From: Winogradskyella sp. PG-2
Lineage (GTDB): Bacteria; Bacteroidota; Bacteroidia; Flavobacteriales; Flavobacteriaceae
Assembly (NCBI RefSeq): GCF_000828715.1
Contig: NZ_AP014583.1
Location: 3,747,480 to 3,811,479 of the forward strand
Length of the DNA: 64,000 nucleotides
Direction of reading: 5' to 3'
Shown: one piece after another, positions 1 to 57,643 of the stretch
Numbering within the stretch: position 1 is the stretch's first letter
How the letters are laid out: every line of letters begins with the position of its first letter
Translations under genes and position numbers: made by a program
The notes under the pieces: generated by a model
Told to the model about the DNA's origin: nothing
Database searches by the model: none
Seen by the model: the letters and a program-made list of their open reading frames with translations, nothing else

Positions 1-2710
1 CTGAAAATTGATTAAACTCTATAAGCTCTAATTCTTCCAATTGGCTTAAATTAGAAAGGTCAAGGTTTGATACTCCATACAACTGTCTAAAATACAGGCT
101 TTTAAGCTGGTTAAGATTAGACAAATCAATCATTTGCAAGCCATACAATGTATTTAAGGATAACGTATGAAGATTGATATTTTGACTCAAATCCAGGCTT
201 GATAAATTACTAGTAGCTGTATCTATTATTAACTCTTCAAGTAGTGTATTGTTACTTAATATTAATTCATTAAAACCAGATGAAGCTGGTGCACCGACAT
301 AAGCATCAATTTCGATTACACGTAAATTAAAGTTATTATTAAAATCAACAGATAAGTTGAGTGCGTAACCATTAGTATATCTAAATACTTCTAAATTCAC
401 AAAGCTTTGAATACCTTCAAAATTAGATATTGAATACCCATTAATATTAAGAGTTTCAACACTTGATATTCCACAAACCTCAATTTGACCATTTAGATTC
501 TGATCCAAATCAATATTTAAATCTATTAAAGCTTGTTCAAACTGTTGGTCAGGAATAAGGATTGTTTCAGCTGTACTAGAAACAAGAGTTACATAAATAG
601 GCTCGCCTGCGCAGTCTTCCAAAAAGTTCTTAGCATTAAATTGATAAACTCCTGGTTCAGTAATTTCGTTCAGTGACGATGGATTGGAGCCATCTTCTAA
701 ATTATCATTTTGGTTATACCAGAAACTTGCTGGATTAAAACCACTTAAATCTGCATTATTAAAACTTGTATTATTAATAGCTTCTGAGTCAATTTCTAAT
801 TGATCATACAACCACAAAAGATCTAAATTATTAAAATCGCAAACCTGCACTGTAGTAACAGGATCAATAGGGTCAAAGGCTACTGTAACATCATTAGCGG
901 TATAAAAAGTTGATGTTTCATAAGTTTTTTCTTCGCTTCCTATATTAAAAGAAGTACTAACCTTAAACTCAAAAAAGTAAGTAAACTGACCAGCACCAGA
1001 TTCAGGAAACCTGATATCAGTACCTTCTAATTCAAGTCCAGACAAACCACTTATTTCATCAATACTAAAAGTAGAAGAACTAAATTTACTATCATTATAC
1101 TCAGCACCTCCATTTGGTTCTGTATACAGAGAGTCATCAAATTTACTAACATCATAAAAATTATCACATATAACACCTCCATTACCATTACTCTCACCTG
1201 CAGTAGCAAAATTATTAAATATTATATCAGCGACTATAGTTATGGATTCTCCTATTTCATCTGTTGCTGTAAACTCAACAGAAACGGCAAGACGATCTAA
1301 AACACCATCAAAATCTGAATCACCTAAAAAATCATCAATTACATTATAAGTCCATATTACTTCACCAATGCAACTATTAACCTCTGCTCCTCCATTAATG
1401 TCTAGCCATTCATTTACTTCAGTTTGATTTCCATTACCATCATAATCAACAATTAAATCATTAGGATTTTCAGTTATTCTTGGATTCAAATTAGCAACAT
1501 AAACACCAGAAGGTTCAAACCAATTAGATTGGGACTGTGCTGCAGACGTATTCCAAACAGCTACACAATTTAAATTAGAGTTATTCCTGACATCAAGAAA
1601 GCTTATTGGTGAGAATAGGCCCTCTTGATTTCTTAGATCTATAAATTGTAAAAATGGATTGTTTGTTACGGTAACATTCTCAAGATTAATATTATTTGTT
1701 AAATCCAAAGATTGAATTGCCGTAAACCTAAGTGTTAAATCATCGAGGTATACATTTTGATCAAATGAAATTTGGTTAAGGTTTTCAGCAGCAAGGATAT
1801 TGACAGTTTCCAAATACATATTTCCATAAAAATCCAATGGCTGTATGATAGCTGCATTGTTATTAATTAATTCAAAGTTTTGAAGGCATTTAAAGAATTG
1901 TAACCCTTCAAAATTCATAATATTGTAATCCAATATATCTAACTGAGAATTAAAATAAATATCATTAAGATTAACCAATGAATTCAATATCCCATCAGAA
2001 TCTATGTTACTATCTATTAAAGCCTGTTCAAACTGTTCATCTGGTATAGAAACAGCCTCATTACCTATATCTATTATACTAAAGTCATCAAATGCAATTC
2101 CTGGGTTTTCACCGCTTAAATTTGATGAAAAAGCAATTCTAAAAAAGACACTACTTTCCCCTGATAAATTTTGAATTGACTGAATAGTTGTAAACCAATA
2201 GGATCCAAAACCAGATTCATATGGATTCCCAGACCAACCAACTTCTTGCCCACCTGGAAGACTTGAAACTGAATCATCATTATAACCATTAAGACCTGTC
2301 TCTAAAGCACCAATATTTTGCCAGGTGAGACCATTATCAATAGAAGATTGAAGAACTGCACCATCACATACACCATTAAAACAATAAGTTTGCCAAATTA
2401 AACTGAAATTTACAACTGGATTTATAAGTGACGATAAATCGAATTCAGGACTTACCAAAGCTGAATTTTCATCAGAATTATAAAAACCCGTTAAATTGGT
2501 CACCCAAGCGTTTAAACCTGAAGCTGCTGAGTTAAAAGATCCAAATGAAGGTGTTCCAAGTTGCCATGAACTATTGACACCTTCTGAAGTCCATCCCCCA
2601 GCACCTGTTTCAAAATCTTCAATATAAGGATATGAGGTTATCTGCGCATTTAAGCCATAAGAAATAGTTAAAGCTATTAATAGAAATTTTATGTTTAATA
2701 CTTTTTTCAT
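1..2710 (-). CDS. Secreted MAM-like / leucine-rich-repeat surface protein, C-terminus outside window
   Basis: The frame is open from an ATG at 2710 to the left edge (about 903 codons), so the stop and any T9SS sorting domain lie outside the window. The N-terminus is a typical signal peptide (MKKVLNIKFLLIALTISYG, then LNAQ). About residues 22-205 form a MAM/choice-of-anchor-like beta-sandwich (YIEDFETGAGGW near its start). A leucine-rich segment follows, then a central region with acidic, calcium-binding-like DYDGNGN. A second leucine-rich segment begins near residue 715. Each leucine-rich segment opens with a near-identical motif, IPDEQFEQALID and IPDQQFEQALID, which suggests internal duplication. 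The start lies 8 bp after the stop of the CHAT gene, so the two are probably co-transcribed. Export to the cell surface is inferred; the ligand is unknown. Confidence 0.8.
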   Translation of the reverse strand, partial: MKKVLNIKFLLIALTISYGLNAQITSYPYIEDFETGAGGWTSEGVNSSWQLGTPSFGSFNSAASGLNAWVTNLTGFYNSDENSALVSPEFDLSSLINPVVNFSLIWQTYCFNGVCDGAVLQSSIDNGLTWQNIGALETGLNGYNDDSVSSLPGGQEVGWSGNPYESGFGSYWFTTIQSIQNLSGESSVFFRIAFSSNLSGENPGIAFDDFSIIDIGNEAVSIPDEQFEQALIDSNIDSDGILNSLVNLNDIYFNSQLDILDYNIMNFEGLQFFKCLQNFELINNNAAIIQPLDFYGNMYLETVNILAAENLNQISFDQNVYLDDLTLRFTAIQSLDLTNNINLENVTVTNNPFLQFIDLRNQEGLFSPISFLDVRNNSNLNCVAVWNTSAAQSQSNWFEPSGVYVANLNPRITENPNDLIVDYDGNGNQTEVNEWLDINGGAEVNSCIGEVIWTYNVIDDFLGDSDFDGVLDRLAVSVEFTATDEIGESITIVADIIFNNFATAGESNGNGGVICDNFYDVSKFDDSLYTEPNGGAEYNDSKFSSSTFSIDEISGLSGLELEGTDIRFPESGAGQFTYFFEFKVSTSFNIGSEEKTYETSTFYTANDVTVAFDPIDPVTTVQVCDFNNLDLLWLYDQLEIDSEAINNTSFNNADLSGFNPASFWYNQNDNLEDGSNPSSLNEITEPGVYQFNAKNFLEDCAGEPIYVTLVSSTAETILIPDQQFEQALIDLNIDLDQNLNGQIEVCGISSVETLNINGYSISNFEGIQSFVNLEVFRYTNGYALNLSVDFNNNFNLRVIEIDAYVGAPASSGFNELILSNNTLLEELIIDTATSNLSSLDLSQNINLHTLSLNTLYGLQMIDLSNLNQLKSLYFRQLYGVSNLDLSNLSQLEELELIEFNQFS

Positions 2711-2718
2711 ATTAAAAT

Positions 2719-3336
2719 TTACTCTAATAGTACAAACGCGGCCCATTTAAAGGGGTCATCTTTATACTTTCTAGACAAGTTGCGTTGTGTCTCTATAAAT
2801 GCTGCTCTAATAGTGTTATTTTTAGTCCAGTTTTTATAAAGTGTTTCCATAAAAATGGCCGTTTCTTTGTCTGGTACCTGCCACAAACTCATAATAAGTG
2901 TATCTACCCCAGCCATTTTAAACGCACGTTGCAAACCATATACTCCTTCACTCCCATTAATATCACCTAAACCAGTTTCACAAGCACTTAGAACAACAAT
3001 ACTGGTATTTGATAAATCTAAATTGGCTATTTCCATAGCTGTTAAAATACCATCTTCATTATCACTATAAAAATTATTGTTTCCCCATGCCTGATTCGCT
3101 CCAGAGAGAATTAAACCAGATCTTAATAATGGGTCTTTTGAGGACCTATAAATATTTGAAACCTCATCATCAATACTAGTTTTTGACTTTTCAGAATTCT
3201 CAAAAAAGAAACCATGAGTAGCAATATGAATAAGATTCGGGCTTTGACCGCTTAAATTCTTGAATTGTTTTTCTGATGCATTATCAGACTCCCATACAGA
3301 AACTACTTTACCCTTTTTTTGATAAAATGTTTTCAA
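2719..3336 (-). CDS. CHAT protease domain, C-terminal fragment of a frameshifted TPR-CHAT protein
   Basis: This 205-codon frame carries the catalytic half of a CHAT (caspase HetF associated with TPRs) domain. The histidine lies in HIATHGFF (about residue 41) and the cysteine in LSACETGLG (about residue 119); both are the expected dyad residues. The frame has only a TTG start and overlaps the end of the upstream TPR frame at an A7 tract (3314-3320). Removing one A would join the two frames seamlessly as SKKGKVVSV, giving one protein of about 1,098 residues. The fragment is therefore probably not an independent gene. It is expressed in full-length form only if the tract is a sequencing error or is slipped over during transcription or translation. 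The LRR gene follows 8 bp downstream. Confidence 0.75.
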   Translation of the reverse strand: MKTFYQKKGKVVSVWESDNASEKQFKNLSGQSPNLIHIATHGFFFENSEKSKTSIDDEVSNIYRSSKDPLLRSGLILSGANQAWGNNNFYSDNEDGILTAMEIANLDLSNTSIVVLSACETGLGDINGSEGVYGLQRAFKMAGVDTLIMSLWQVPDKETAIFMETLYKNWTKNNTIRAAFIETQRNLSRKYKDDPFKWAAFVLLE

Positions 3337-6016
3337 TAGACATAACTTCCTTTAAGGTTCCAGGAAGTTCATTCCACTTTGAAGCCCTCGACTCAGCTTC
3401 GTTAGACTTAATATCATAATTTACACCACCTATAAGAAGAATATTACCATTATCCTTTTTATTTATTTCGTTAATTAAATTATGAGTGCTACCCATTTGA
3501 TACAAATCGTATTGATAAGAAAGTATTGGTTTATCTTTAGTCCCAAGAGCAGACATTGGTATTTGATTTAGTATACCACTTAGCGCAAAATACACTTTCT
3601 TTTTTGGGCTTAGGTTTTTTAAATAGGCCTCAATAGGAAGCCATATCAGATTGTATAAACCCTTTGTTGATTTCATAGATTTTCCCTTGGATCCTCTAAC
3701 GGCATATAATGAATTTGGAGAGCCTTTATCTAATAATGCTATAAGTTCTTTCTCTCTAAATAATGGAATAACTGCTGGTTGAAGTTCATCTTTAGTATAT
3801 AAATAAGCGATATAGTTCGTTTCGCCAGTTGACTTGTTGTTTTTGTAGGTGCCAAAATGAGCAAACTCAATGGCTACTTCATCTTGTTTTAACTGCTTCC
3901 TTACATCTTCCCAATTTCGTGTAAGAGAAATTCCTCCTTCAAAATTTGTAGAATAATATTTTACTAGTTCGGCTTCCCTCTGATTAACTACACTTTTTAA
4001 ACTATCAATTTCTTTTTCGTTTGTAGTTCTATACTGTGTTAACAATTTTGACAATCTTTTTTTATCATTTTTATAGAGTTCAATTTTGAATGTTAAACTA
4101 TCATTCTCAATCTTACTAAGCTTTGTTAAAATATCCTTAGAATTATTCAATAGCAAGCCTTTTAACATTAATTGATTATTCAAATTTGCAATATCTAAGC
4201 TCGAATCTTTAAATGTATCACTTTGCGATAAAGATTGCATTTGATTGAACGTATTAGTTATCATCTTCATAAAAGCCGCCTTTTCTTGCTCACTGCTAAA
4301 CTGAAAAATCTTGTTGATTTGATTTACAAATACACTATTAGATTCTAATAATGATGAAATACCTTCATCTTTCATACCCAAGCCAAAGTAAGTGTTACTA
4401 AGTGTTTTTAGAAAATCACCATAATCCACATGGTCTGTCCCTAATATGTCACCAAGATTAGAAGTAGATTCTTTAATTAAAGGTAAAGCGCTTTTAAAAT
4501 CCCCTGTTAAATTATATGCATTTGCTAAGCTATATTTTCTATTATAGAATTCTTCATTTTTAGGCTTACCCTTATTAATAAAGTAATTCAAATTCTTTTC
4601 CATAAGTCTAATCGCCTGCTCGTTATCACCTAATTCAAGCAAAGTTTTGGCATAATCGTTAAGCATATAGCTGTAATCGTTGTGCCATTCTTCTCCTTCT
4701 GGTTTTTCATTTATCTCTAAAGCATTTTTAAAATACTCTAAAGCTTCATCAAACCTATTTTCTTCAAAATAAAGTTTACCTCTATTATTTAAGAGCTTCG
4801 CATACTTTTCGCTATCCACTCCATGAGAGATTTTCATGGATTCAATTGACTCATTATAGAATTGATTCGCTAAATTATATTGTCCCATATTTTGATAACA
4901 ATACCCTTTATCCATAAGCCTTAAACTTATGGTTCTCTTGGATATTTCAGTAACCTCTAACGCTTGGTTACAATAATAAATCGCTTTTTCATAGTTGCCA
5001 ATACGGTCATAGATTAGTCCAATCACTCCAAGTAACTGGGCATAAGAATCAGTATTGTTGTCATTTTGACTAATCATAGTTTTTTGCACCTTCTTAAAAG
5101 CGTCTATTGCCTTTAAATAGTTATTATTATCTCTTTCTATTAGTCCTAAAACATAACTAGCGTATATATAACCACTACTATTTGAATCTTCAAGATTTTC
5201 AAATATTTGCAATGCCCTATTTTCATATGCTGCTGCCTTTTCTAAAAATCCTGCTCTCCAAAAAACGACTCCAAATTCATTAAGTGAATTTGTGTAAGAT
5301 TCACTTGTACTTCCTTCTTTTTTTTCTACGATATTTAGAGCCTCTTCTGCGACTATTTGCGCATTTAATGTATCCCCTAGGTTTATATAAACGAGCAATA
5401 GACTCTTTAAAATACCTTCTTCTTTTAATGTATTCATAGGAATTGAATGCACTAGATTTAGAGCTTGTTCAAGATGTTGCTTTGCTTTTAAGTTATTTTG
5501 CTTTGTGCCTTTATAAATCTTGCCTAATCCATACAGGGTTTTAGCATAATCACCTGTATTGGAAAGATCATTTTTACTTAAAACAGATTTACGCTCCTCA
5601 TAGAGCTTTATAGCATCTTTGTATTGTCTATACTTAGACAAAGAATCCGCAAATTGCTCTAGTCTAGAAGAATAGTCTAAAAGTTTAGCCTTATTAAGAC
5701 CATCCGAGCTTTTTAATAACATATCTGTTAACTCTAAAGAATCAATAAGGGCAAACTTCTTAAGAGCAATGTTTGCACTATAATACTCTAGTAATGCTTG
5801 CCGAAGTTTTTTCTTAGAATTTATACTATCTCTTGCGATAGTATATGCTGTATTTAAGTATGGTAAGGCTTCTTTGTAGGAACTATCTTTTACCAGAACC
5901 ATTCCTTTAGAATAATTATCCTTCAACTGCAAGTAGTTCTTAGAACCATTACAGGAAGAAAAACAGACACCTATTAACAAAAAGGCGAAACAAAATCGAA
6001 AAAAAGCAGTCAACAT
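3308..6016 (-). CDS. TPR-repeat lipoprotein, N-terminal part of a frameshifted TPR-CHAT protein
   Basis: The 902-residue frame starts with a lipoprotein signal (hydrophobic residues 5-19, lipobox FSSC, cysteine near 21), so the protein should be membrane-anchored outside the cytoplasm. Residues of about 90-560 are tetratricopeptide repeats, for example YAKLLNNRGKLYFEENRFDE and YEKAIYYCNQALEV. A helical linker follows, then the first part of a CHAT domain (YFALSGILNQIPMSALG, and ELPGTLKEVMSIENIL). The frame ends in the A7 tract at 3314-3320, just before the catalytic His and Cys, which lie in the next frame (2719-3336). TPR arrays normally bind a partner and gate CHAT proteolysis. The partner is unknown; the downstream secreted LRR protein is one candidate. 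Confidence 0.8.
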   Translation of the reverse strand: MLTAFFRFCFAFLLIGVCFSSCNGSKNYLQLKDNYSKGMVLVKDSSYKEALPYLNTAYTIARDSINSKKKLRQALLEYYSANIALKKFALIDSLELTDMLLKSSDGLNKAKLLDYSSRLEQFADSLSKYRQYKDAIKLYEERKSVLSKNDLSNTGDYAKTLYGLGKIYKGTKQNNLKAKQHLEQALNLVHSIPMNTLKEEGILKSLLLVYINLGDTLNAQIVAEEALNIVEKKEGSTSESYTNSLNEFGVVFWRAGFLEKAAAYENRALQIFENLEDSNSSGYIYASYVLGLIERDNNNYLKAIDAFKKVQKTMISQNDNNTDSYAQLLGVIGLIYDRIGNYEKAIYYCNQALEVTEISKRTISLRLMDKGYCYQNMGQYNLANQFYNESIESMKISHGVDSEKYAKLLNNRGKLYFEENRFDEALEYFKNALEINEKPEGEEWHNDYSYMLNDYAKTLLELGDNEQAIRLMEKNLNYFINKGKPKNEEFYNRKYSLANAYNLTGDFKSALPLIKESTSNLGDILGTDHVDYGDFLKTLSNTYFGLGMKDEGISSLLESNSVFVNQINKIFQFSSEQEKAAFMKMITNTFNQMQSLSQSDTFKDSSLDIANLNNQLMLKGLLLNNSKDILTKLSKIENDSLTFKIELYKNDKKRLSKLLTQYRTTNEKEIDSLKSVVNQREAELVKYYSTNFEGGISLTRNWEDVRKQLKQDEVAIEFAHFGTYKNNKSTGETNYIAYLYTKDELQPAVIPLFREKELIALLDKGSPNSLYAVRGSKGKSMKSTKGLYNLIWLPIEAYLKNLSPKKKVYFALSGILNQIPMSALGTKDKPILSYQYDLYQMGSTHNLINEINKKDNGNILLIGGVNYDIKSNEAESRASKWNELPGTLKEVMSIENILSKKG

Positions 6017-7722: not shown

Positions 7723-8109
7723 TTAAATAAACTTATCTAAATCCATCTCATTAATACCACCATGAGAGGCGTGCGCCACCACTACTCCATTCCGCAATAC
7801 CAGTAATTGCGGAGATTGGTGCATTACTTGGAATTTATAACCGGTTTCATTTGAAACTTCTCTATAACTTAATAAATCTAAATAATATAAATCTGCGTTT
7901 GCATCTAGGTTGTAAGACGATACAAATTGGTTCATTACCATTCGGCTAATACCACAGCGTGTAGAATGCTTAAAAATAAGCTGTGTTTTAGTTTTAGATT
8001 TATCTTCAATAGCATGTAATTGTTCTATACTATTTAAAGCAATCCAAGGCAATACTTTTTCTTCTTTAGGTTCTGATGAACCACCAAACATTTTATTAAA
8101 AATCCCCAT
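7723..8109 (-). CDS. ytxJ: YtxJ family bacillithiol-system / thioredoxin-like monothiol protein
   Basis: This 128-residue cytoplasmic protein has a thioredoxin-like core. Its single active cysteine lies in FKHSTRCGISRMVM, the signature of the YtxJ (DUF2847) family. A later VMHQSPQLLVLRNG segment corresponds to the thioredoxin cis-Pro loop. The family is thought to reduce mixed disulfides between proteins and bacillithiol, which many Bacteroidota make. It stands alone on the minus strand, with clpB starting divergently 196 bp away. Whether the two share stress control cannot be told from the sequence. Length is normal for the family and the ATG start is unambiguous. Confidence 0.85.
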   Translation of the reverse strand: MGIFNKMFGGSSEPKEEKVLPWIALNSIEQLHAIEDKSKTKTQLIFKHSTRCGISRMVMNQFVSSYNLDANADLYYLDLLSYREVSNETGYKFQVMHQSPQLLVLRNGVVVAHASHGGINEMDLDKFI

Positions 8110-8305: not shown

Positions 8306-10912
8306 ATGAATTTTAATAATTATACCATTAAATCACAAGAAGCCTTACAGCAAGCACAGCAGCTTGCGCAAGGTTTTGGTCATCAGCATATAGAAAATGA
8401 CCATATTTTTAAAGCCCTTTTTGAGGTTGATGAAAACGTTTTACCATTCCTGCTAAAGAAGATGAATGTTAATGTATCAATATTTCAACAAATATTAGAT
8501 AAGGAACTAGAAAGTTTTCCAAAAGTTTCTGGTGGAGATATTATGATTTCTCGCAATGCTAGTAAAGCTTTAAACGAGGCTTCTATCATTGCCAAAAAGA
8601 TGAATGACGACTTTGTATCTATAGAGCATTTGGTATTAGCCATTTTTAAATCTAAAAGCAAGATTGCACAGATTCTAAAAGATCAAGGTGTTACAGAAAA
8701 GGTACTAAGCGCGAGTATAGATGAGTTACGCAAAGGAGATCGTGTCACCTCACAAAGTCAAGAGGAAACCTATAACGCACTTAGTAAGTATGCTAAAAAC
8801 TTAAATCAGTTAGCTAGCGATGGCAAATTAGATCCTGTTATTGGAAGAGATGAAGAGATTCGTAGAATACTTCAAATTTTATCACGTCGTACTAAAAACA
8901 ATCCAATTTTAGTTGGTGAACCAGGAACTGGTAAAACGGCTATTGCAGAGGGTTTAGCACACAGAATTATAGATGGTGATATTCCAGAAAATCTAAAAGA
9001 CAAACAAATATTTGCTTTAGATATGGGTTCACTTATTGCTGGTGCAAAATTTAAAGGCGAGTTTGAAGAGCGCTTAAAAGCCGTTATAAAGGAAGTAACA
9101 ACTAGTGATGGAGATATAGTTCTCTTTATTGATGAGATTCACACTTTAGTTGGTGCAGGTGGTGGACAAGGTGCCATGGATGCTGCTAATATTTTAAAGC
9201 CAGCTTTAGCACGTGGTGAATTAAGAGCCATTGGTGCAACTACATTAGATGAATATCAAAAATATTTTGAGCAAGATAAAGCCTTAGAACGGCGTTTTCA
9301 GAAAGTTATAGTGAACGAACCAGATACTGAGAGCGCTATTTCTATTCTTAGAGGTATTAAGGAGAAATACGAAACGCATCACAAGGTTAGAATTAAAGAC
9401 GAAGCCATTATTGGTGCTGTAGAATTATCTGAGCGCTACATTACAAACCGATTCCTACCAGATAAAGCTATTGACTTAATGGATGAGGCTGCGTCTAAAT
9501 TACGTATGGAAATTAACTCTAAGCCAGAAGAATTAGATGTTCTCGATCGTAAAATAATGCAATTAGAAATTGAACATGAAGCCATTAAGCGCGAAAAAGA
9601 TGAAACCAAATTAAAAAGTTTAAAAGTTGATTTAGCAAATCTTAAAGAAGAACGCAATGAGATTAATGCCAAATGGAAATCTGAAAAAGAGGTTGTAGAA
9701 AACGTACAAACTATTAAACAAGATATTGAAAACTATAAACTAGAAGCGGAACGTGCAGAGCGTGAAGGCGATTATGGTAAAGTAGCAGAAATACGATACG
9801 GTAAAATTAAAGAGGCCACAGAATCATTGGAAGCCTTTCAAAAACAATTAACAGAACAACAAGAAACGGCCTTAATTAAAGAGGAAGTGACTTACGAGGA
9901 TATTGCAGATGTTGTTGCCAAATGGACCGGAATTCCAGTAACCAAAATGATTCAAAGCGAACGTGAAAAGCTTCTTAAATTAGAAGATGAGTTGCATAAA
10001 CGTGTTGTAGGGCAAGAAGAAGCCATAGAAGCTGTTAGTGATGCTGTAAGACGCTCTAGAGCAGGCTTACAAAATCCGCAAAAGCCAATAGGAACCTTTT
10101 TGTTCTTGGGTACAACTGGTGTTGGTAAAACAGAATTAGCTAAGGCCTTAGCCGAATATCTGTTTGATGATGAAAATGCGATGACACGTATTGATATGAG
10201 TGAATATCAAGAACGACATGCTGTAAGCCGATTAGTTGGAGCACCTCCTGGTTACGTGGGCTATGATGAAGGTGGTCAATTAACAGAAGCTGTAAGACGT
10301 AAACCATATTCAGTGGTGTTATTAGATGAAATTGAAAAAGCGCATCCAGATACTTTCAATATTTTATTACAAGTGTTAGATGAAGGGCGATTAACAGATA
10401 ACAAAGGTCGTATTGCTGACTTTAAGAACACTATTATCATTATGACCTCAAATATGGGAAGTCATATTATACAAGAACGTTTTGAAGCTACAAAAGATAT
10501 TGCTTCAGCCATTGAATCGGCTAAAGTGGATGTTTTAGGCTTATTGAAACAAAGTGTAAGACCAGAGTTCTTAAATCGAATTGATGATACCATACTCCTT
10601 ACACCTTTATCTAAAGAAAACATTGTAGATATTGTTGGCTTACAACTAAATAGTGTTACTAAGATGATTGCTAAGCAAGGAATTACTTTTGACGCGACAC
10701 CAGAAGCCATTAGTTATTTGGCAGAGAAAGGTTATAATCCAGAATACGGAGCTAGACCTGTAAAACGTGTTATACAAAAAGAGGTATTAAATCAATTAAG
10801 TAAAGAGATTCTAGCAGGATCTGTAACTACTGATAGCGTTATTCTTTTAGATGAGTTTGATGATAAACTCGTTTTTAGAAATCAGGGAGATTTAGTTGTT
10901 GAAGAATTCTAA
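8306..10912 (+). CDS. clpB: ATP-dependent disaggregase ClpB
   Basis: This 868-residue Hsp100 chaperone extracts polypeptides from aggregates together with DnaK/DnaJ. An N-terminal repeat domain (about 1-145) precedes the first AAA+ module with Walker A GEPGTGKT (about 203-210) and Walker [15 protein letters not shown] coiled-coil middle domain rich in Glu and Lys (about 400-530) marks ClpB as opposed to ClpA or ClpC. The second AAA+ module carries GTTGVGKT (about 602-609), the pore loop GYVGYDEGG and the sensor region [10 protein letters not shown]. Length is standard. A short leader with a small palindrome (GTAGATTTCTAC) lies upstream; no CIRCE element is visible. A probable terminator follows at 10965-11017. 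Confidence 0.98.
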
Positions 10913-54204: not shown

Positions 54205-56779
<2,575 letters not shown>

Positions 56780-56783
<4 letters not shown>

Positions 56784-57643
56784 TTATTCTTTTTTCCTTT
56801 TAGCATTCTATCGTTGCCATTTAAATCTTTAAACAATTCTATATCAGCAAAATCTGCATCAACTAATAGTTGCTTGGTTTCTTCACCAAGATACTGGTTA
56901 ATTTCAAAATATAACTCACCATTTTGTTTCAAATTGTTAACAGAAAAATTGGTTATAGTTTTATAAAATAATAATGGGTTTTTATTATCTACAAACAATG
57001 CTAAATGTGGCTCATTATCTAAGACATTAGGTTGTATTTCTACTTTTTCTAGATGCCTAACATATGGTGGATTGGACACTATAATGTCAAAATTCATATC
57101 CCAAGTAAATTCAACTAATATATCTGCTTCAATGAAAGTTAGTTCTACGTTATTTAGTTCTGCATTCATTTTAGCTACTTCTAATGCTTCTTTGCTTACA
57201 TCTAAAGCATAAACTTCAGCATTAATTAGATTTTTGGCTAAACTAATGGCTATACAACCAGAACCTGTCCCTATATCTATAACTTTAATCTTTTTAGAAT
57301 TTAGTTTTTGGTTTTTGATATTTTGAAGAACAAGAGCAACAAGTTCTTCTGTTTCTGGTCTTGGAATAAGTACGTTTTCATTCACCTTAAATGATAATCC
57401 GTAAAATTCTGTTTCGCCTAAAATATATTGTATAGGTATTTGTTTATTTAAATCTTCTAATGCATTAAAAAACGCGTCAGTTTCTGAGTTTGATAATGTG
57501 AATTCAGGCTCTAGAGTTAGTTGAAATCTTGGAACGTCTAAATAATGTTGTATACACAAGTAGAAGAAACTATCAACTTCATCTTTACCATAAATTGCAT
57601 CTAATTCTTTGTGAAAAATATGTTTTAGGTCTAGCGCTTTCAA
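56780..57643 (-). CDS. prmC: Release factor glutamine methyltransferase PrmC
   Basis: This 287-residue methyltransferase modifies the Gln of the GGQ loop in release factors RF1 and RF2. The SAM-binding motif is VIDIGTGSGCIAISLAKNLI, and the substrate-glutamine motif is IIVSNPPYVRHLE. The N-terminal helical domain includes FYLCIQHYLDVPRFQLTLEP and IQYILGETEFYGLSF. The gene overlaps the LOG gene by 4 bp and follows the GNAT gene by 2 bp. Confidence 0.96.

Follow-up and report, generated by a model that had tools for sequence, protein, structure and literature searches.

The gene on the minus strand at positions 2,719 to 6,016 very probably is a TPR-CHAT protease gene, normally single, whose frame was broken when one base was gained or lost in a block of adjoining A and G runs, an ordinary frameshift. 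The window, that is the whole analysed stretch of 64,000 nucleotides, corresponds to G000:C1:3747480-3811479 and lies at the very end of a genome of 3,811,479 bases in a single contig. The upstream frame (3308..6016, minus strand, 902 amino acids) contains an export signal assigned by eye, a TPR array placed by Pfam and the first part of a CHAT domain, and the downstream frame (2719..3336, minus strand, 205 amino acids) contains the remainder of the domain and a C-terminus typical of the family. A preliminary description of the locus had given these coordinates and the +1 register of the downstream relative to the upstream frame, both of which hold. The frames, described there as meeting exactly, instead overlap by 29 bases (6016-3308 and 3336-2719 on the minus strand). 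Within the overlap lies the block where the frame is lost (3311..3320, minus strand), made up of seven T at 3314-3320, which are seven A on the coding strand, and three G directly after. The A7 named earlier as the site of the break is thus indeed found in the overlap, but the assignment to the A-run is uncertain, as A-run and G-run touch and the position of the indel is not fixable more exactly than 3311-3320.

Are the two frames really parts of one gene? The Pfam CHAT profile (PF12770, cut-off 24 bits) matches in two pieces, profile positions 5-119 in the upstream frame with 30.9 bits and positions 124-286 in the downstream frame with 152.7 bits. Since the two frames encode consecutive parts of one Pfam model, a chance pair of neighboring genes is ruled out, and the full-length relatives described below exclude it likewise. 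The codons for the catalytic histidine (in HIATHG; 3214..3216, minus strand) and the catalytic cysteine (in SACETG; 2980..2982, minus strand), whose roles are assigned by homology, are intact, as had been claimed. Of the features that define a TPR-CHAT protease, a profile score over the cut-off and the His/Cys pair are present and one continuous polypeptide is not. The proposed joined protein of about 1,098 residues agrees with the consecutive Pfam parts and with the closest relative, P0002, which has 1,100 residues.

The break does part the catalytic dyad from the remainder of the protein, albeit not between the TPR array and the CHAT domain, as first proposed, but inside the CHAT domain. In a predicted model of P0002 (60 sequences as input, mean pLDDT 87.5, pTM 0.78) the junction corresponds to residues 901-905, a loop between a helix (887-900) and a strand (906-912). 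In Csx29 the protease region begins with CHAT1, a pseudo-caspase, and continues with CHAT2, which is active (PMC10028731); going by its position, the break would fall near the start of a CHAT2-like part. An indel in the A/G block coding for this loop would split the gene within a domain. The catalytic residues are absent from the upstream product and the start of the domain is absent from the downstream frame. Taken as read, the sequence would encode exported TPR repeats with an incomplete caspase-like domain lacking the His/Cys pair and hence no protease. As the break is inside the domain, neither product is expected to be a protease, and protease activity should be lost. It could be imagined that the catalytic half is translated alone from the in-frame TTG at 3336, upstream of the break, and assembles with the TPR part to a two-protein enzyme. 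In line with this idea, database proteins of 166-357 amino acids containing the catalytic part exist (120 listed of 4,219), though the search admits only lengths near that of the query and many of these proteins, being encoded on contigs of small size, may represent truncated fragments. Such an enzyme is nevertheless extremely unlikely: the frame has its first ATG at residue 101, past the histidine at residue 41, the split cuts through a single domain, and the export signal seen by eye belongs to the upstream piece only, which would put the two pieces into different compartments.

Comparison with full-length homologues, which had been recommended as a check, finds the gene continuous through the junction in P0002 and in all 27 other CHAT loci. 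P0002 is the closest protein besides the window's own among the matches listed (63% identity), where clustering at 90% could hide a nearer relative. It shares 64% identity with the first and 80% with the second piece (whole 205-residue frame), and the junction aligns without gap. Within the genus, the 902-residue piece has a match at E<=1e-30 in 13 of 68 genomes, the own genome included. The nearest of these relatives have open frames of 1,111 (G033, 50% identity), 1,115 (G039, 46%), 1,140 (G025, 40%), 1,069 (G061, 37%) and 1,081 amino acids (G060, 32%), all devoid of internal stops. A continuous relative is present in Winogradskyella pelagia DF17. In G033, G039 and G061 the gene is close to genes for a 128-residue bacilliredoxin-like protein and an 868-residue chaperone, as in the window (7723..8109, minus strand, where Pfam run on the window copy identifies the BrxC family, and 8306..10912, plus strand, an open reading frame), the window and G061 having one additional gene in between. 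The chaperone is presumably ClpB-like. This shared flank indicates that the continuous copies are found at the same place. Moreover, the homologous loop was read in the DNA of 28 distinct CHAT loci including the window, and the other 27 all pass through it in one frame. This count is limited to loci with the motif H[ILV]A[TS]HG, so that L004 and L005, CHAT matches of the own genome without it, were dropped; some of the 27 frames are truncated where the stretch or its contig ends, and one genome contributes several paralogous loci. One database protein, P0006 (1,043 residues), passes the junction in frame but departs from the family past SACETG and ends early, perhaps because of a frame break of its own or a fault in the assembly.

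Other searches covered the family more widely. A family-wide search with P0002, limited to two scored candidates per genome, yielded a match at E<=1e-90 in 5 of 299 genomes, one of them being the own genome. A scan of contigs with the 902-residue piece returned 31 stretches and no relative, and a second scan with a four-row alignment found 5 loci, 3 of them in Winogradskyella. The 24 sequences matched by P0002 in the PDB, kinesin light chain among them, are TPR proteins without exception, none matching over the catalytic part, and the 205-residue piece has no match in the PDB up to E 1. PADLOC, run on 8 proteins, reported generic TPR and caspase models only and left 3 proteins without match.

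The preliminary description also offered the A7 as a phase-variable switch or as a site of transcriptional slippage, and neither proposal gains support from the relatives. Phase variation would mean that replication slippage in the homopolymer toggles the protease and that the assembly caught the off state. The coding-strand A7 at the break, the good preservation of the catalytic half and a plausible target, given that the protein appears exported by eye and its gene adjoins one for a surface protein, are all consistent with such a switch. It is improbable all the same, since the tract is not conserved: runs of at least six A are lacking at the loop in 24 of the 27 other loci, and the A7 of L022 and the A6 of L014 and L018 are in frame, indicating that an A-rich loop can arise from lysine codons and alone breaks no gene. 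In addition, runs of seven are common in the genome, and the upstream frame itself contains another A7 as well as an A8. With transcriptional slippage on the A7, a minor share of the transcripts would code for the whole protease, and short and full-length protein would be made side by side. Slippage by a single base agrees with the register, and insertions and deletions rise with run length in Buchnera, as insertions do in E. coli, in a transcript study (PMC5574713). The same study describes deletions within homopolymers as rare in E. coli transcripts (PMC5574713). Furthermore, a survey of 108 bacterial genomes finds that selection against slippage in A/T runs becomes apparent at length nine in a large proportion of the genomes (PMC1088944). 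Buchnera and E. coli are distant from the host, so some slippage on the A7 may still take place here. Programmed slippage, however, predicts a site conserved among relatives; since none of the 27 other loci is broken at the loop and an A7 occurs there once and an A6 twice, a conserved slippery site was rejected and a slippage origin of the arrangement is very unlikely. Frameshifting by -1 on the ribosome was rejected as well, because a -1 shift leads into the third frame, which closes soon past the A-run, whereas the downstream part continues in the +1 register.

If the gene is broken, how old is the break? Identity to P0002 amounts to 492 of 784 residues in the TPR part, 78 of 113 in the first CHAT part and 162 of 196 past the junction. 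Among the 76 columns in which at least 85% of the homologues agree, the window departs in 3, P0002 in 1 and the others in 0 to 24. Relative-rate comparisons with six outgroups (P0003, P0004, P0005, P0007, P0008 and P0009; P0006 left out) gave ratios of window-only to P0002-only changes of 7:3, 8:4, 8:5, 7:3, 4:5 and 10:2 for the catalytic part and of 48:81, 65:48, 50:60, 53:59, 49:68 and 41:47 for the TPR part. Window-only changes prevail in five of six comparisons in the catalytic part and P0002-only changes in five of six in the TPR part (Fisher p 0.03-1.0, the comparisons not being independent), which may hint at a slight relaxation of the catalytic part and would speak, weakly, against a pure error. 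As the catalytic half has hardly decayed, the break would be either very recent or an assembly error. Alternatively, continued use of the catalytic half via low-level slippage or phase variation could account for its good preservation.

For the one-base indel in the A/G block, a sequencing or assembly error, already considered in the preliminary description and kept here as a candidate, has nearly an even chance of being the cause; a very recent inactivating mutation of the strain is a possibility somewhat short of even. Long homopolymers are ordinary in this genome. The window contains 50 (at least 7 A/T or 6 G/C bases), 33 of them inside open reading frames, this one included, and 20 further 15-kb stretches (a 300-kb sample) contain 267 A/T runs of 7 or more. 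The genome completeness of 99.97% speaks against a genome full of errors, and so may the 32 other long runs inside open reading frames of the window. How frequent are broken genes elsewhere? A scan of 436,505 bases (431,484 distinct), including five stretches chosen for their CHAT genes (L031-L035) and 20 stretches at spaced positions, found 15 pairs of frames, 14 of them distinct. Twelve of the 14, read in translation, comprise nine pairs of unrelated neighbors, one broken regulator and two transposase-like pairs; what remains is the CHAT gene and a pair at positions 56431-56966 of the window. Since the scan picks up a break only if both frames are long and no ATG is near, broken genes are undercounted. 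A genome riddled with homopolymer errors was not seen, with a single non-IS break besides the CHAT gene recognized, among the twelve pairs read, in 431,484 distinct bases. The two transposase-like genes in two frames (L035:2726-3948 and L035:8866-9869) flank another CHAT gene, one of them with its frame change at an A9; we take this one to be IS3-like and the other IS30-like.

The broken regulator (Reg_prop/Y_Y_Y plus LuxR; L049 8848-11702, near 869-872 kb of the genome) has matches in 58 of 68 genomes of the genus, own included. In the 71 rows listed for 57 other genomes the open frames measure 926-991 amino acids versus 788 here, and 10 rows have a stop within the match. The longest run in its overlap is an A5; an A7 occurs shortly beyond the stop codon that ends the upstream frame, and the overlap, to which the shift is confined, does not include it. 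That the regulator is also broken in frame points to a low background rate of frame breaks in this genome. One break per about 430 kb, leaving out the CHAT gene because its finding chose the window, fits ordinary pseudogenes as well as residual sequencing errors. A 2013 survey of older assemblies expected that BLASTp-validated singletons are sequencing errors and not genuine indels (PMC3711429). The present locus resembles such GeneTack singletons in being one broken gene among continuous relatives, and is unlike them in that the loop of this gene is A-rich in some relatives, too.

Downstream of the split gene, with a likely ATG at 2710, 8 bases past the CHAT stop, begins a gene (1..2710 and beyond the window, minus strand) whose product, a secreted protein of very large size, has a T9SS sorting tail. 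The longest open reading frame of this gene encodes 2,384 amino acids from a start at 2746 (L031:10072-17226) and contains 7.2 copies of a 204-base repeat with 95% matches. A protein with a similar, SYPYxEDFE-like start is encoded next to the CHAT gene in G033, G061 and G060 and, by eye, in G116. More generally, exported TPR-CHAT genes of Winogradskyella and relatives repeatedly have as neighbors genes of large secreted proteins, several of which carry a T9SS sorting tail. This pairing leads to a testable substrate hypothesis that may interest more than the break. In its boldest form, an exported TPR-CHAT protein and its T9SS-sorted neighbor would constitute a protease-substrate pair outside the cytoplasm with the A-rich loop as reversible off-switch, which is quite improbable. 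Among the literature matches listed on the CHAT domain, type IX secretion, Flavobacteriaceae and caspase, none mentions the CHAT domain. Searches for Rfam families and tRNAs gave 0 matches each. Elsewhere in the genome, three caspase C14 and three CHAT proteins are encoded in a cluster (L032:749-15766, near 415-430 kb), and similar clusters are seen by eye in several genomes of the genus (L041-L044, L082). A CHASE2 membrane protein and a small partner gene are found near CHAT genes at L036:2008-3201, L038:5944-7125 and L040:12493-13662, the first assigned by Pfam and the other two alike by eye. The broken gene itself matters little beyond annotation, where an entry as frameshifted TPR-CHAT gene is appropriate for the locus.

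Known proteins with a comparable architecture were compared by structure using VIA-align. Separase and DdvA combine TPR repeats with a CHAT-like C-terminal part, as found here, at a low identity of 11-14% to this protein. Both presumably serve other cellular roles, judging from entry titles. The TPR-CHAT fold is also common to Csx29 of the type III-E CRISPR system (Craspase). In contrast to Csx29, the protein described here is longer, has an export signal by eye and is encoded in a neighborhood with T9SS-type secreted proteins; no CRISPR gene was noticed among the neighboring open reading frames that were read. The proposed exported pair, if true, would be an envelope counterpart of Csx29-Csx30.
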